Shown: one piece after another, positions 15,588 to 21,813 of the stretch
Position numbering within the stretch: position 1 is the first letter of the stretch
Layout of the letters: every line of letters begins with the position of its first letter
Source: Pacificibacter marinus
GTDB lineage: Bacteria > Pseudomonadota > Alphaproteobacteria > Rhodobacterales > Rhodobacteraceae
Direction of reading: 5' to 3'
NCBI RefSeq assembly: GCF_018860665.1
Contig: NZ_JAHKPK010000019.1
Span: 1 to 32,909, forward strand
DNA length: 32,909 nt
The notes under the pieces: generated by a model
Databases searched by the model: none
What the model was told of the DNA's origin: nothing
The model's input: the letters and a program-made list of their open reading frames with translations, nothing else
Made by a program: the position numbers and the translations under genes

Positions 15588-16814
15588 GTGAACATCAATC
15601 AAACCCAGCCAGCCGATCCCACGCGCAATGTATACTTGCGGATTTGCGGTCATCTCGCAGAGGAAACCGATATTCGCTCGGCTCTCGGCGCTGTTGCAGG
15701 TGAAATCGCGGAACTCATTCCTTTTACCCATGCCGACATCTGCCTGCTTGAAAATAAACATTGGACGACCAGTTACGAGGTCGGCATTAAAACACGCTGG
15801 TCACGCAGGCGCACACAAATCCGATATTCTCCCGTACGACAGATTTTACACAAGCAAACCGATGCGATGCTCACCACAAATGCGATGGAGGACCTGCGCT
15901 ACGTCTTCGCCGGAGCCACGTGTGAACCGATATTTGAACATCAACTGCGGTCGCGTGTGAATGTCAGAATGAAAGCGATGGGGAAACTGATTGGCACATT
16001 TAACCTCTCTCATAGTGAGGAAGGCCTTTATGACGCTGACAGTATCCAGATCGCGTATCAATTGGCCGATGTTTTAGCACCGTATTTTAATGCCCTGCAC
16101 AATGCAGATCAGATGCGCCAAGCGACCTATCAAGGTGCAGAAGCGCGCGCCCGCGAAGAGGGTTTGCGCCAAGGTGCGCTGGATCTGACCCAAACATTAG
16201 AACAAGAACGTCAACGCATTGGCATGGACCTGCATGATCAAACACTCGCAGATTTGACGCGGATTTTGCGCGATCTTTCCGGAGATGCTCCGGCGCCGAC
16301 GATTCCGATGTTGACCACGCGAGTGAGTGATTGCATCGATGACCTGCGCCGCATCATCGATATGGCCGTTCCCACCCTGTTAGAGCTGTTCGGTTTCACC
16401 CATGCCCTGCGGGTGCATCTTGAACGCGCATCAAATACGGATTTGATTCAGACCGAGGTCATTGATCACACAGGAGGTATGCCTGACAGATTGAACACCA
16501 TGACCCGCACAGCCCTTTACCGTATCGCCCAAGAGGCGATCAATAATGCGGCACGTCATGCCGAACCAAGCCGTATATCTGTCGTCATTGAAATTGATTC
16601 CAACGATCACCTATTGCTGAAAATCCGCGATAACGGGTGTGGCTTTAGCTCGGATCGCGACAACGTTCCGTCTGGATTGGCACATATGCGCACCCGCGCA
16701 CGGCTGATTGCGGCACAATTCGAGATTATTGAAGACGCAGGCACCTGTGTCGTGGTCACTTTGCCGCTGTCCGCAAACGACACCTTGACCGAACCTTTGG
16801 AGTATCAACGATGA
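15588..16814 (+). CDS. Soluble GAF-domain histidine kinase (NarX-like, HPK7)
   Basis: A 408-residue kinase without membrane segments. Residues 15-170 look like a GAF sensor (SALGAVAGEIAELIPFTHADICLL ... IGTFNLSHSEEG). The HisKA_3 box is ERQRIGMDLHDQTLADLTRI with His216, and the ATPase part shows the N-box QEAINNAARHAEP, G1 IRDNGCGF and G2 GLAHMRTRARLI. It would phosphorylate the coupled response regulator (ATGA overlap). It starts at GTG with GGGAGG upstream. A cytoplasmic sensor next to an uptake system suggests it reads an imported ligand or its metabolite. Confidence 0.9.
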   Translation: MNINQTQPADPTRNVYLRICGHLAEETDIRSALGAVAGEIAELIPFTHADICLLENKHWTTSYEVGIKTRWSRRRTQIRYSPVRQILHKQTDAMLTTNAMEDLRYVFAGATCEPIFEHQLRSRVNVRMKAMGKLIGTFNLSHSEEGLYDADSIQIAYQLADVLAPYFNALHNADQMRQATYQGAEARAREEGLRQGALDLTQTLEQERQRIGMDLHDQTLADLTRILRDLSGDAPAPTIPMLTTRVSDCIDDLRRIIDMAVPTLLELFGFTHALRVHLERASNTDLIQTEVIDHTGGMPDRLNTMTRTALYRIAQEAINNAARHAEPSRISVVIEIDSNDHLLLKIRDNGCGFSSDRDNVPSGLAHMRTRARLIAAQFEIIEDAGTCVVVTLPLSANDTLTEPLEYQR

Positions 16815-17515
16815 AAGTTCTCGTCGTCGAAGACGATCAGTTTCACGCCCGCTATGTTTTGGATGCCATATCCGAAGAACTGCCCGAAGTGACTGAAATC
16901 GCCCATGCTATCAATCGCGATGAGGCCGAAATCGAGGCGCGCACCGGCGGATTTGAAGCTATCGTGATGGATTTGCAAATGGAGCAAGGGAATGGGATCG
17001 ACGCCGCCCGTGCAATCTGGGCGCATAGCCCGCAAACGCGAATACTATTTTGGTCGAACTACGCGGATGAGGCCTATTTGCGCGGTATTTCGCAGATCGT
17101 TCCTGAGGCAAGCGCATACGGTTACGTGCTGAAAACGGCCACACGCGACAGATTGAAACTTGCGCTGCGCGCGGTGCTTTTTGAAGGTCAAATCATGATC
17201 AGCCGTGAGCTGTATCAATATCAACGCCACAGACAGCCAAGCAGCGCGTTAGACAAAAGCGAATATGCCGTTTTGCTTGACCTTGCTTTGGGGCTGCAAG
17301 ACAAAATGATCGCTGAACGTCAAAACCTGTCGCTGCGCACGGTCCAAAACCGCTTACAATCCCTTTACGATAAATTGGGTATCGACGAGGAAGATGGTCC
17401 AGCTTTGAACAAACGCGTGCGCGCGTTGAACTGCGCGATCCGTAAAAAGGCGTTGAACTTGCAAACCCTAGAAAGCGCTGAGGCAGAATACCAAAGGTGG
17501 CGCGAAACCCAATAG
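16811..17515 (+). CDS. NarL/FixJ-type response regulator
   Basis: A 234-residue two-domain regulator. The receiver has VVEDDQ, phospho-acceptor Asp54 (VMDLQME) and Lys108 (YVLKTATRD). The C-terminal LuxR-type helix-turn-helix is LDLALGLQDKMIAERQNLSLRTVQNRLQSLYDKLGI. Its ATG overlaps the kinase stop. The last 45 residues form a charged helical tail longer than usual. Likely targets are the divergent ABC operon or its own promoter. Confidence 0.92.
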   Translation: MKVLVVEDDQFHARYVLDAISEELPEVTEIAHAINRDEAEIEARTGGFEAIVMDLQMEQGNGIDAARAIWAHSPQTRILFWSNYADEAYLRGISQIVPEASAYGYVLKTATRDRLKLALRAVLFEGQIMISRELYQYQRHRQPSSALDKSEYAVLLDLALGLQDKMIAERQNLSLRTVQNRLQSLYDKLGIDEEDGPALNKRVRALNCAIRKKALNLQTLESAEAEYQRWRETQ

Positions 17516-17691: not shown

Positions 17692-19143
17692 TCAAGCACG
17701 ACCAGAAAATATCTCTTTCTTGATGATCGCATGGACGCCCCAGTTACCATCGACAACCTGCGTGATCCCAAAATCAACCCCGACAGACATGAGCGAATGC
17801 GCCTCATCTTCTGTCAGTCCTTTTGTGCTCATCAAAAATTTTCGCATTTTACGGAAAGCATCTCGCATAGCATCGTCAATCGAGGCTTTATTGTAGATTT
17901 CTGACTGCGCATCCTTTCCAAGAGTGGCAAGGTAGTTCGGCACAGAGAAGCCATGAACCAGCCATTCTGTTTGCGTTTCCAGCATCGGGTGATCCATTTC
18001 TTCAAGCGAGGTTCCTGCAAGATCCGCTTTTTTATGCAAGATCAATTGGAATGTGCCAGTCAACGAACATTCAATGGCAGTGCCGCAAAGCTCACTGTCC
18101 CCTTGAGAGGCATGAGGATCACCAACCGACATCAAGGCTCCGTCAACCGCTACTGGATAGTACATTGTCGCCCCCTTCCCGATCCGCCAGTTATCGATAT
18201 TGCCACCGGTATAGCTGGGCGGCACAGAGTCTACGAAATCAGCTTCTGCTGGTGCGACGCCCAAAGTGCCAAAATGTGGCCGGATCGGCACCCGAATACC
18301 CTTTAAGACATCGTAATTGCGCGCAGTCAAAGAGTGGTCAACCGGCACACCGGGGTAGTCGATCGTGGGATGGGTTACGCCATATGGGTCAGTCTGGGGC
18401 ACCCATTTGAAATTATAAACGGCCTCAGCCCAACTCTTTTGACCCGTCGCATCGACTTCATAGATGGTAATGACTTCCCGTTTGTCATCGGTAATCATGT
18501 CATTGTAATGAAAGCCCCACCATGCAGCAGCGTTGGACCCATAGGTTTTGCCGGAAAAGTCAGGATTGGCACTGGGGCGAGGAACGCAGTCGAGAATACG
18601 CACCTCCAAAACATCGCCCGGTTCTGCGCCGCGCACATAGACCGGTCCGGTCATGATATGGACGCCTTTGCCATCACCAGAGCCGATTTGGTAGACGCTG
18701 GGATCAGTAGAGCCCGCGCCACGGCGTTCGACGCCTTTCTTGTCCTTTGTCCAAAGGTATACGCTTTCAGCCCCTTCATCCCCTTGAACCATGCGTTCCA
18801 GATCGTCGCCTGCGTGGTGAGTCAGGGTCTCGATCGTGACGATATCGCCGCTGTCGATTTCGATCTGTGGCTTTAAGGTCTTGCTGAAATAGCCCCAATG
18901 AACGGTGTCGGAGGTGGCGGGCAAATAGTGATCGGACGGGGTTGCAGGACCGTTTTTCGCACTTGCCTGAGCCAGTGCTGGCGTGACCAAAGACAATCCA
19001 CCCACGGCCCCCACAGCAGCCAGACCGCCTGCGCCAAGGACCCCATTGCGCAAAAAGTCGCGACGTCCCGGATTGATATCTTCTTTGAATGTTTTGAAAT
19101 GGGCCTCAAAATTCGGGCAATTTACATCATCTCCACGACACAT
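17692..19143 (-). CDS. Tat-exported acetamidase/formamidase-family enzyme
   Basis: A 483-residue FmdA/AmdA-family (PF03069-type) protein expected to hydrolyse a short amide to acid plus ammonia. A twin-arginine signal, GRRDFLRNG with Arg27-Arg28 then a Gly/Ala/Val-rich segment ending ALAQA, implies folded export to the periplasm. Family blocks: TVHWGYFSK (80-88), TLTHHAGDD, GVHIMTGP, GSNAAAWWG, TIDYPGVPVDH and GDPHASQGDSELCGTAIE (341-358). It is longer than cytoplasmic formamidases (about 400). The 26 residues before the Tat motif contain Cys2 and Cys9. A GGAGA site precedes the ATG. The divergent neighbour carries a close copy of this domain. Confidence 0.88.
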   Translation of the reverse strand: MCRGDDVNCPNFEAHFKTFKEDINPGRRDFLRNGVLGAGGLAAVGAVGGLSLVTPALAQASAKNGPATPSDHYLPATSDTVHWGYFSKTLKPQIEIDSGDIVTIETLTHHAGDDLERMVQGDEGAESVYLWTKDKKGVERRGAGSTDPSVYQIGSGDGKGVHIMTGPVYVRGAEPGDVLEVRILDCVPRPSANPDFSGKTYGSNAAAWWGFHYNDMITDDKREVITIYEVDATGQKSWAEAVYNFKWVPQTDPYGVTHPTIDYPGVPVDHSLTARNYDVLKGIRVPIRPHFGTLGVAPAEADFVDSVPPSYTGGNIDNWRIGKGATMYYPVAVDGALMSVGDPHASQGDSELCGTAIECSLTGTFQLILHKKADLAGTSLEEMDHPMLETQTEWLVHGFSVPNYLATLGKDAQSEIYNKASIDDAMRDAFRKMRKFLMSTKGLTEDEAHSLMSVGVDFGITQVVDGNWGVHAIIKKEIFSGRA

Positions 19144-19476
19144 GGCGTTTCTCCTGTTGTGAGTTTTAAGTGCTGATGCTCATCATTGAGCCCGACGTGA
19201 GCCGCCAAACAAGAGGGCCCGCGGATTGCCTTGAAGAGGCTGAGTCTGGAATGGAATTCAAATATTATTAATAAAAATCAATTACATAATGGACTATACA
19301 AACACACAAAAAACATCGTGGTCAAAGGCGCACGTCGCATCCGAACAATAGATTGTGCGTATGTTGGACAATGATCCCTGATACAAATGCATGAAAAAAA
19401 GGCATAATTGATGAAAGTCACCGAAGCTGGGGCGATTACGCTGCCGGATGTGTAGGTTCCTAAGATATGTTGAGCA
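19144..19476. promoter_or_regulatory. Divergent promoter region between amidase and AraC-FmdA genes
   Basis: 333 bases without a supported gene, very AT-rich around 19255-19320. It must contain the promoters of both divergent genes and, if the AraC-type protein regulates the amidase, its binding sites. I could not find a convincing pair of direct repeats by eye. Confidence 0.4.
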
Positions 19477-21813
19477 ATGACCATGATAGTAAGCCCCAAA
19501 CATCTGGATCTTTCGACGTTTCCCGAGGACAGCAAGGCCGAGAGTTGGCGCGAGGCTCTGGCAGAGTTGGGCCTGCGCCCCGCATCAGAGGAGCCGATAC
19601 CCTCGACCGGATTGCTGAGCGTGATCGAAGCTGGAAACGGTTTGCGTATTGCACGCCTTATTGGCCCAGCCCAAGTCATACGCCCCATTCCAAACCCACG
19701 ACGATTGGCACCTCTGCTTTTGGTTTTGACACTCCGAAGCCGCGGCAGACTATCTGCGGATGGCCAAGTAAAATCCTTTGCGCAAAACGACCTCGCAGTG
19801 GTCAATCAGGGCCAAGATTGGCGGTTGCGCTGGTTCGATAATACCAAAGTGATCCTACTGGAACTTCCACATGAGGTGATCACAAGACGCCTTGGACACC
19901 AGAAACCGAAACTCCCATTGGTGCTGGGCAACTCGATTGCGACAGACATGGTGCGGGCGATGCTGACGATACTGGGAACGCAGCTCGACGATCTCAATCA
20001 AAGCAATTTAAGCATTAGCGAAACGGCACTGGTGGATTTGATCTGTAGCGCCTTATCGGATGAGGCTGATTTTGCAGAGACCACATTTACCCAAGTTCAG
20101 GTGGCGCATTTTCAGAGGGTCTCAATGACGGTCGACGAGCATTTATCTCGTCACGAATTGTCGATTGCTGAGGTTGCAAAGCAAGTCGGGCTTTCAGTGC
20201 GCTATGTACAACGGCTGTTCGAACTCAACGGCGTTAGCTTTTCGCGATATGTGAGGCGGAAACGATTGGAACGCAGCCGTTCTGATCTCATGGATCTGAC
20301 AAAAATGTCCCTCGGTGTCGCGCAGATTGCCCATAGCTGGGGGTTCAGCAACTCTGCGCATTTTAGCCGCGCGTTTCGGGACGAATTTGGTATTTCTCCA
20401 CGCGAGTTACGTGACGCCAGCCGTGATACGCCTTTATCCTATACCTTTCGCGGTCATCCAGGCAACATGTCTGCCCCACTGCTGATCACACCCTCGCGTC
20501 GAGTGTCACAGGGGCAATTTGAACCCAATGCCGACCTGCCAGTCCCAGCGCCGGGAAACGACAATACGATCGACTTTGTCCTACCAGTACGCGCCGATAC
20601 GGTGCATTGGGGCCATATTAGCAAAGCAAACCAGCCAGCTCTTTTTGTACCCTCAGACTCGGTCGTGAAAATCGAAACCCTAACCCAGCATGGCGGTGAT
20701 GACTATGCGCGCTTTATCCAAGGGGACCCAGGCGCGGAGAGTATTTTCATGTGGACGGATGAAGCAAAGGCAATCGACCGGCGCGGCGCGGGTCCGATGA
20801 ATGCGTCGATCTTTGGACGAGGGGCTGGTGAAGGGTTCGGCGTACATATCTGCACCGGTCCGATCCATGTCATTGGCGCTGAACCCGGCGATGTCTTAGA
20901 GGTGCAGATTCTGGATATTGCGCCGCGGCCTTGCGCCAATCCGCAGTTCCACGGCAAAGCTTTTGGCAGCAATGCTTCGGCGTGGTGGGGGTATCAGTAT
21001 AATGATCCACTAAAAGGAACGGCTCGGCACGAAACAATAACTATTTTCGAAGTCGACCTTGCAAATCCGAACGAAGCGCGTCCGCTTTACCAATACCTTT
21101 GGACGCCACAGACCGACCCCTTTGGTGTTGTCCATACGACCATGGACTATCCCGGCATTCCCGTTGATCATAAAAGCATAGATAAGCGCAGGTCAGCTTT
21201 GGATGGGGTGACAGTGCCAGCGCGCCCCCATTTCGGCTTTGTCGGCGTCGCACCGCGCGAGGCAGAGATTGTCGACAGTATCCCACCCGGTTATTTCGGG
21301 GGGAATTTTGACAACTGGCGCGCGGGGCCCGGCACGCGCATCTACTTGCCGGTTGCCGTGGCCGGCGCCTTATTGTCTATCGGTGACGGGCATTTCAGTC
21401 AGGGCGATGGCGAAGTCAACGGAACGGGGTTGGAGATGTCTTTGACCGGAACGGTACGGCTGCGATTGCACAAATCCGGCGAGACCACACAACCGCACCT
21501 GCGCGGTTTATGCAGCCCACTGGTTGAAACATCAGATTTATGGGTGATCCAGAGTTTCAGCTTTGAAAACCATCTCAGAGATTTAGGAAGCAGCGCGCAG
21601 ACAGATGTTTATACCCAGTCAACCGTGGACCTTGCCATGCGTAACGCCTTTCGCCAGACACGACGCTTTCTCATGGATACTTACAATATGAGTGAAGATG
21701 ATGCGCATGCGCTCATGTCTGTTGCCGTCGACTTTAGCGTTACGCAAGTGGCTGACGGGAACTTTGGTGTGCATGCGACGGTGCGAAAGTCTCTTTTTAA
21801 CACAACTGGATAA
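19477..21813 (+). CDS. AraC-type regulator fused to a full acetamidase/formamidase domain
   Basis: A continuous 778-residue frame with two parts. Residues 1-200 resemble the AraC_binding_2 (FeaR-like) sensor domain; 213-313 are a complete AraC DNA-binding domain with both helix-turn-helix units (LSIAEVAKQVGLSVRYVQRLF; VAQIAHSWGFSNSAHFSRAFRDEFG then SPRELR). Residues 370-778 are a whole FmdA-type domain aligning end to end with the divergent amidase: TVHWGHISK (375-383), TLTQHGGDD, GVHICTGP, GSNASAWWG, TMDYPGIPVDH and GDGHFSQGDGE (636-646). The presumed active-site His/Gln/Asp/Glu block is kept; the CGTA that follows in the enzyme is NGTG. There is no signal peptide, so it is cytoplasmic. The C-terminal domain may sense, or still hydrolyse, the amide. 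Confidence 0.9.
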   Translation: MTMIVSPKHLDLSTFPEDSKAESWREALAELGLRPASEEPIPSTGLLSVIEAGNGLRIARLIGPAQVIRPIPNPRRLAPLLLVLTLRSRGRLSADGQVKSFAQNDLAVVNQGQDWRLRWFDNTKVILLELPHEVITRRLGHQKPKLPLVLGNSIATDMVRAMLTILGTQLDDLNQSNLSISETALVDLICSALSDEADFAETTFTQVQVAHFQRVSMTVDEHLSRHELSIAEVAKQVGLSVRYVQRLFELNGVSFSRYVRRKRLERSRSDLMDLTKMSLGVAQIAHSWGFSNSAHFSRAFRDEFGISPRELRDASRDTPLSYTFRGHPGNMSAPLLITPSRRVSQGQFEPNADLPVPAPGNDNTIDFVLPVRADTVHWGHISKANQPALFVPSDSVVKIETLTQHGGDDYARFIQGDPGAESIFMWTDEAKAIDRRGAGPMNASIFGRGAGEGFGVHICTGPIHVIGAEPGDVLEVQILDIAPRPCANPQFHGKAFGSNASAWWGYQYNDPLKGTARHETITIFEVDLANPNEARPLYQYLWTPQTDPFGVVHTTMDYPGIPVDHKSIDKRRSALDGVTVPARPHFGFVGVAPREAEIVDSIPPGYFGGNFDNWRAGPGTRIYLPVAVAGALLSIGDGHFSQGDGEVNGTGLEMSLTGTVRLRLHKSGETTQPHLRGLCSPLVETSDLWVIQSFSFENHLRDLGSSAQTDVYTQSTVDLAMRNAFRQTRRFLMDTYNMSEDDAHALMSVAVDFSVTQVADGNFGVHATVRKSLFNTTG

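Follow-up and report, generated by a model that had tools for sequence, protein, structure and literature searches.

An AraC-type regulator fused to a complete FmdA-type amidase domain, a probable enzyme-derived sensor in proteobacteria

The question raised by this locus is whether an amidase can be reused as the sensing part of a transcription factor. In the 32,909-nucleotide stretch of the Pacificibacter marinus genome analyzed here (hereafter the window), one gene couples an AraC-type regulator with an FmdA-type domain, and the gene diverging from it encodes a free amidase of the same type. We examined how the protein is built, how widely the architecture recurs, how the fused domain differs from its free counterpart, and which DNA element accompanies the gene.

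Architecture of the fusion protein and its divergent partner

The main features of the fusion gene and its partner are listed below with their positions in the window, the strand, and the basis of each assignment.

19477..21813, forward strand: AraC-FmdA fusion gene, 778 aa (open frame and translation; Pfam)
19552..20055, forward strand: AraC_binding_2 N-terminal domain, residues 26-193 (Pfam PF14525, 37.5 bits)
20176..20415, forward strand: AraC DNA-binding domain HTH_18, residues 234-313 (Pfam PF12833, 73.7 bits)
20431..20571, forward strand: linker, residues about 319-365, variable except for R325, G326, and P328 (two alignments)
20572..21801, forward strand: complete FmdA domain, residues 366-775 (BLASTP to the free copy; 3b9t; PF03069)
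20686..20688, forward strand: codon 404, specifying Gln in fused but His in free copies (97 fused rows compared)
20794..20859, forward strand: fusion-specific conserved loop, residues 440-461, GRGAGEGFGVHICTG region (block conservation comparison)
21382..21414, forward strand: FmdA signature GDxHxxQGDxE, residues 636-646 (invariant in 100 fused rows)
17692..19143, reverse strand: divergent free FmdA-type amidase, 483 aa, with a twin-arginine-like signal (RRDFL at residues 27-31)

The fusion gene (19477-21813, forward strand) is a single frame of 778 codons with zero internal stops, and Pfam, BLASTP, and phmmer bear out the sequence-only reading that it joins an AraC regulator to a complete FmdA domain. 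All three Pfam matches (AraC_binding_2, HTH_18, and FmdA_AmdA) exceed their curated cut-offs. The helix-turn-helix region is matched by PF00165 (55 bits) as well as by PF12833, which places the protein in the AraC family, and the FmdA_AmdA match (PF03069, residues 456-760) reaches 103.6 bits against a cut-off of 27 and includes the GDxHxxxGDxE signature of that family. The nearest solved structure to the enzyme part is 3b9t, a 484-aa chain named as a Tat-pathway signal protein; because phmmer aligns it along residues 361-774, the enzyme domain is complete. At the finer level of NCBIfam, the best match is FeaR (NF007243, residues 82-314), whose 118.1 bits lie under the cut-off of 199, and the 500-bit cut-off of the formamidase FmdA equivalog NF045496 is missed by the fusion (68.5 bits) and the free copy (68.4 bits) alike.

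BLASTP aligns the fused domain (366-775) with the divergent amidase at 54% identity (220/411) across the GDxHxSQGDxE block, in agreement with an earlier by-eye estimate of half or more, and the RRDFL motif of the amidase is consistent with the Tat signal proposed for it. Between the sugar ABC transporter genes and the amidase pair, the window (15588-17515) also encodes a GAF/histidine kinase and a response regulator of NarL type, closest in NCBIfam to MctS/MctR but below cut-off.

Recurrence and distribution of the fusion

The sequence-only reading would have been undermined by a stop or frameshift separating the two parts, or by absence of the architecture from related genomes. The window has no such interruption, and among 100 fusion loci examined, spanning alpha-, beta-, and gammaproteobacteria by organism names, 99 encode the whole fusion in one ORF; this count includes at least three pairs of duplicated records (L075/L112, L076/L095, and L084/L133). 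The exception is L065, where the N-terminal part is encoded as a separate frame. An origin by frameshift or chimera was rejected on the same count.

In genome samples, the fusion was recovered from 4 of 394 genomes of the family, 4 of 385 of the class, and 8 of 398 of the phylum, each count including the genome under study and the three samples overlapping (E-value limit of 1e-60, two candidates scored per genome). A free copy is also carried by all four family genomes and by seven of the eight in the phylum sample, in which eight other genomes have a free copy only. A scan of GTDB genomes yielded at least 80 loci with a fusion match. In a plasmid collection, 18 records matched the fusion query, 16 of them over at least 80% of its length, and plasmid records annotate such proteins either as AraC regulators or as amidases. 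Within the genus, only one of 19 other genomes (G009) gave a full-length match, located in a stretch that we consider artefactual; the distribution of the fusion is therefore patchy.

The apparent fusion of G009 is full of stops, which we put down to a sequence artefact. It lies in a 23-kb stretch (G009:C26, about 250000-273000, loci L037-L052) with sharp edges and a strong one-strand base skew (T about 0.05). Substitutions relative to the window are confined to one strand and fit a rule by which, of two letters, the one standing later in the order A, C, G, T is kept; A becomes about uniform, whereas T remains at 0.93. We read the stretch as two overlaid sequences whose ambiguity codes were each reduced to a single letter, and hence as an assembly or database artefact imitating hypermutation. 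Hypermutation itself was rejected, and only gene order was taken from G009. Separately, contig G000:C13 (L036, 3538-3822) preserves the C-terminal part of another such FmdA in a 94-aa frame. This fragment is 55% identical to fusion residues 699-774, its frame overlaps one resembling a transposase by eye, and it is probably a relic of a gene that an insertion element cut.

Gene layouts and partner genes

The sequence-only reading had proposed checking whether the fusion recurs next to a free FmdA gene, and this proved to be so in 84 of 97 loci. These 97 loci, which exclude L141, L162, and L065 and also served for the comparisons of position 404 and of invariant positions, fall into five layouts.

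Layout A, 33/97 loci: divergent Tat-type free amidase, as in the window
Layout A', 11/97 loci: Tat-type amidase upstream on the same strand, in beta- and gammaproteobacteria
Layout B, 30/97 loci: SBP_bac_3, fused permease/ATPase, signal-less amidase, fusion, and often RidA
Layout C, 10/97 loci: shorter FmdA
Layout D, 13/97 loci: free copy absent from the locus

Among 75 free copies, a set that excludes 12 short FmdA proteins, 43 have a Tat-like signal only, 31 an ABC importer only, none both, and one neither (with a cruder Tat pattern the counts were 38, 31, 0, and 6; the signal of L149 is doubtful). The two attributes are mutually exclusive, and therefore either the enzyme is exported or its substrate is imported. 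The periplasmic partner envisaged earlier is thus one arrangement among others, predicted for the 43 copies with a Tat-like signal but not for the 31 that are signal-less and sit beside an importer. Because of its AraC DNA-binding domain, the regulator is expected in the cytoplasm in every layout.

In several layout D loci, TRAP transporter and gamma-glutamyltranspeptidase genes lie nearby, as identified by Pfam runs on one representative of each neighbor gene. Across the fusion-only loci L108, L113-L116, L118-L123, and L129, many of them in Ancylobacter, a gamma-glutamyltranspeptidase gene is common to seven and TRAP DctQ or DctP to seven; these neighbors raise the possibility of a gamma-glutamyl substrate. 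At the level of whole genomes, 17 fusion-bearing ones were checked: G793 and G795 match with the fusion only, the sole further match in G796 is a distant copy of 41% identity, and G807 and G808 have a shorter FmdA.

Origin of the fusion and shared history of the fused and free copies

A phylogeny was reconstructed by a quick search under LG+G4 from 98 FmdA domains, a redundancy-reduced subset of 204 rows without those shorter than 280 aa. The 47 sampled fused domains occupy one side of a single branch (SH-aLRT 96), with the free copies outside. Because these domains form one clade, the AraC-FmdA fusion is, as judged from the sequences, old and arose once. The tree rejects a recent local duplication of the FmdA pair in the window, so that the duplicated enzyme of the sequence-only reading stands as a paralogous pair but not as a recent local event. 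Furthermore, distances between fused partners correlate with those between free partners (Mantel r 0.74 over 70 loci, with L075, L095, L073, L074, and L071 omitted from the divergence comparison), as expected if the pairs travel together, and we conclude that fused and free copies were inherited or moved together across alpha-, beta-, and gammaproteobacteria.

Divergence of the fused FmdA domain

Eight residues of the catalytic motif (N610, D612, D637, H639, Q642, D644, E646, and E653) are each conserved at 1.0 in 100 fused rows, in an alignment from which the distant FmdA gene of L077 (6151) was dropped at an E-value cut of 1e-15; an active fused enzyme is therefore possible. Literature searches found no usable account of the chemical roles of FmdA catalytic residues, and PMC5341072 deals with kynurenine formamidase, a different type.

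Around this motif, the fused copies have changed. At position 404, the His of the free copies is replaced by Gln in 95 of 97 fused rows (H404Q). Of 160 positions invariant (>=97%) across the 75 free copies, 30 carry a different residue in the fused copy of the window, and A640F, S645G, and A651G are among the changes beside the motif. Pairwise comparison of 30 divergent loci shows greater divergence in the fused domain than in its free counterpart for 433 of 435 pairs. The region N-terminal to FmdA, linker included, is the least conserved part of the protein, with a mean distance of 0.663 against 0.357 for fused FmdA over 70 loci. One block runs counter to the faster divergence: residues 440-461, alone among ten blocks, show higher conservation in fused copies (0.92) than in either free set (0.71 and 0.83). 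The kept motif, the changed residues, and this loop would together suit a sensor that has preserved its pocket and gained a contact surface.

A predicted operator accompanies the fusion

Two further features were assigned in the divergent intergenic region of the window.

19344..19371, forward strand: predicted operator with a pair of directly repeated CAA half-sites (19346 and 19369) around TTGTGCG (motif comparison)
19380..19388, forward strand: possible, weak -10 element GATACAAAT for the fusion gene (by eye, position analogy with related loci)

A scan of this intergenic region for consensus promoters and terminators found nothing. The divergent intergenic regions of the fusion loci share the block GnCAAgAnTTTGTGCGCaTG, at 19344-19363 of the window. 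A matrix was built on 31 divergent intergenic regions (L075 and L095, the same records as L112 and L076, were omitted), and its leave-one-out score exceeds the shuffled 95% level in 30 of them; L097 lies at the threshold, and L125 has no significant site. Of the 30 significant sites, 29 point toward the fusion gene. In the divergent layout, the evidence therefore favors autoregulation, and control of the Tat amidase from the same predicted site is plausible.

With this divergent-trained matrix at a score of at least 12, forward matches in the other layouts were found upstream of the first gene: before SBP genes in 11 of 34 loci, before the free gene in 9 of 19 SBP-less loci, and before the fusion in 12 of 14 loci without a free copy, the corresponding reverse matches numbering one, zero, and zero. 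At the same score, free genes behind an SBP gene had none (0/33 forward, 0/33 reverse), and fusion genes in loci with a free copy had 0/52 forward and 1/52 reverse. Although 23 of 34 ABC operons score below 12, the element found there independently is similar: a motif search upstream of SBP genes, which forces one site per region, recovered the same element from 29 non-redundant regions (687 against 298-316 in shuffled sequences). The second CAA, which sits just outside the trained matrix, follows the first by 22 bp in 70 of 78 sites, where the other spacings have a median count of 1, and by 23 bp in the window. Here, as for the -10 comparison below, the best site of each divergent region was used and, elsewhere, best sites scoring at least 5. 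These cross-layout, -10, and spacing counts include duplicate records and close relatives, and kinship within groups such as Ancylobacter and Bradyrhizobium makes the P values of the cross-layout comparison overstate independence. Sites of AraC-family regulators usually consist of tandem direct half-sites about two helical turns apart, and the predicted sites have this spacing.

The element was absent upstream of ten out of ten free genes lacking a fusion, each region being scanned over 780 bases (best score 4.7, against up to 7.2 in a null of 130 blocks; one of them, L066, is a plasmid and was judged fusion-less on the plasmid alone). Four fusion loci had been held out of training. L175 is the same record as L115, and the three others, from records outside the training set but with relatives in it, score 28.8-32.5; the held-out loci, L177 and L178 included, were scanned whole (11-13 kb). 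Taken together, a conserved, predicted operator accompanies the fusion across layouts.

In the genome under study, the exact operator pattern occurs once, at the window site; allowing up to two mismatches gave 30 matches against 15 in a reversed control, with no second target evident. Second motifs flanking the operator are weak (310 against 247-260 shuffled on the free-gene side; 302 against 230-239 on the fusion side). Operator-like sites also lie just downstream of the fusion in L063 (9412, score 18.1) and L163 (6842, score 21.8); the former precedes a polysaccharide deacetylase family gene, a possible extra target. An 18-nt direct repeat, 78% alike (19296-19313 and 19381-19398), flanks the predicted operator and may be due to chance.

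Proposed mechanism and alternative readings

We consider it probable that the fusion is a one-component AraC regulator using an amidase-derived FmdA domain as the ligand sensor for an amide-use module. In this view, an ancestral proteobacterium acquired an FmdA-type amidase domain a single time, and the domain became an extra module for sensing ligands. The cytoplasmic fusion protein would bind the tandem operator, with its two CAA half-sites about 22 bp apart, ahead of the transcription unit carrying the fusion gene, and would thereby control itself and a small amide-use module whose free amidase is either Tat-exported, as predicted in the window, or intracellular alongside an amino-acid-type ABC importer. 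An amide or related compound, or its product, would reach the cytoplasm and occupy the FmdA domain, and the resulting change of state would most likely activate transcription. By eye, many loci have -10-like sequences about 26 bp downstream of the second half-site, a spacing that suggests activation from a site next to or over the -35 region. Operator binding, amide sensing by the FmdA domain, and activation by the fusion are what we infer from these observations in combination.

That the fused domain is a sensor rather than a spare enzyme is argued for by its faster divergence (433/435 pairs), H404Q, the fusion-specific loop, and the kept pocket motif. The same full conservation of all eight motif residues in 100 fused rows could also serve a bifunctional trigger enzyme, in which the fused amidase hydrolyzes its own inducer and the regulator switches off as the amide is depleted, and the fusion would then be the sole enzyme of the subfamily in G793, G795, and G796 among the 17 genomes checked. 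We regard this as a credible but unlikely alternative, given H404Q in 95 of 97 fused rows and the departure of the window copy from 30 of 160 free-invariant residues, several of them beside the motif. The bolder form of the idea, in which the fused domain is still an amidase and the protein a transcription factor destroying its own inducer, an ancient self-resetting switch coupling turnover to production of a paralogous enzyme, is one that we put forward tentatively and rather doubt.

Ligand sensing could instead fall to the N-terminal AraC_binding_2 domain, which could be the real sensor, leaving FmdA as an oligomerization or protein-contact module only, for example one holding free amidase subunits. 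Loop 440-461, the one block whose conservation in fused copies exceeds that in either free set, would suit such a contact surface, but the whole pocket motif is kept, the region preceding FmdA is the least conserved (0.663 against 0.357 over 70 loci), and the free enzyme of the Tat layouts is predicted to be in another compartment; we therefore judge this reading improbable. Finally, the conserved element might be a promoter or the site of another regulator of the same operons, and by eye its distance to likely -10 sequences is much the same across many loci. This is quite improbable in our view: the element follows the fusion through several layouts and three classes, fusion-only loci included, is missing from all ten fusion-less free-gene regions, and has the tandem two-turn spacing expected of AraC-type sites. 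The regulator with an amidase-derived sensor thus remains our preferred reading.

Relation to known systems and significance

FeaR is not known to contain an FmdA domain. FeaR-type AraC regulators (NF007243) share the AraC helix-turn-helix with the fusion, which falls below their 199-bit cut-off. By sequence, the joining of a DNA-binding domain to a whole enzyme domain is of the kind found in BzdR and MocR regulators. BzdR (PMC3602430) combines HTH-XRE with a shikimate-kinase-like domain; there too a linker connects the DNA-binding domain to an enzyme-derived effector domain that senses a compound of the controlled pathway, as proposed for the fusion. The DNA-binding family and the enzyme differ, kinase activity was undetectable in the enzyme-like domain of BzdR whereas the catalytic motif of the fusion is intact, and a related free enzyme is usually encoded near the fusion. 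MocR, GabR, and EnuR (GntR HTH with an aminotransferase-like sensor; PMC8739950) likewise reuse a whole enzyme fold as a sensor, as proposed here, and the MocR type keeps the cofactor-binding lysine; they are GntR rather than AraC proteins, rely on PLP cofactor chemistry, and are described as lacking enzymatic activity. On the enzyme side, FmdA/AmdA amidases, 3b9t, and the Methylophilus methylotrophus fmdCABDEF cluster (PMC10781810) represent enzymes and separate regulators, in contrast to the fused protein of the window.

Literature searches, covering titles and the starts of abstracts, returned no description of an AraC-FmdA fusion among the matches listed. Enzyme-derived sensors are already known from BzdR and MocR/EnuR, and the combination of AraC with FmdA is new as far as searched. 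Annotations that name such fusion proteins plain amidases are corrected accordingly. The predicted operator, the diagnostic H404Q, and the swap between Tat signal and importer are open to direct tests, and the regulator may add an amide-responsive switch to the AraC toolbox. The family provides a naturally recurring example of what is probably an enzyme turned sensor, with its paralogue usually encoded nearby, and comparison of fused and free pairs within one genome gives access to the transition from catalyst to sensor. If the fused domain were still an amidase, a self-resetting switch would drive a paralogue that works elsewhere, in the Tat layout, or alongside an importer, in the ABC layout.
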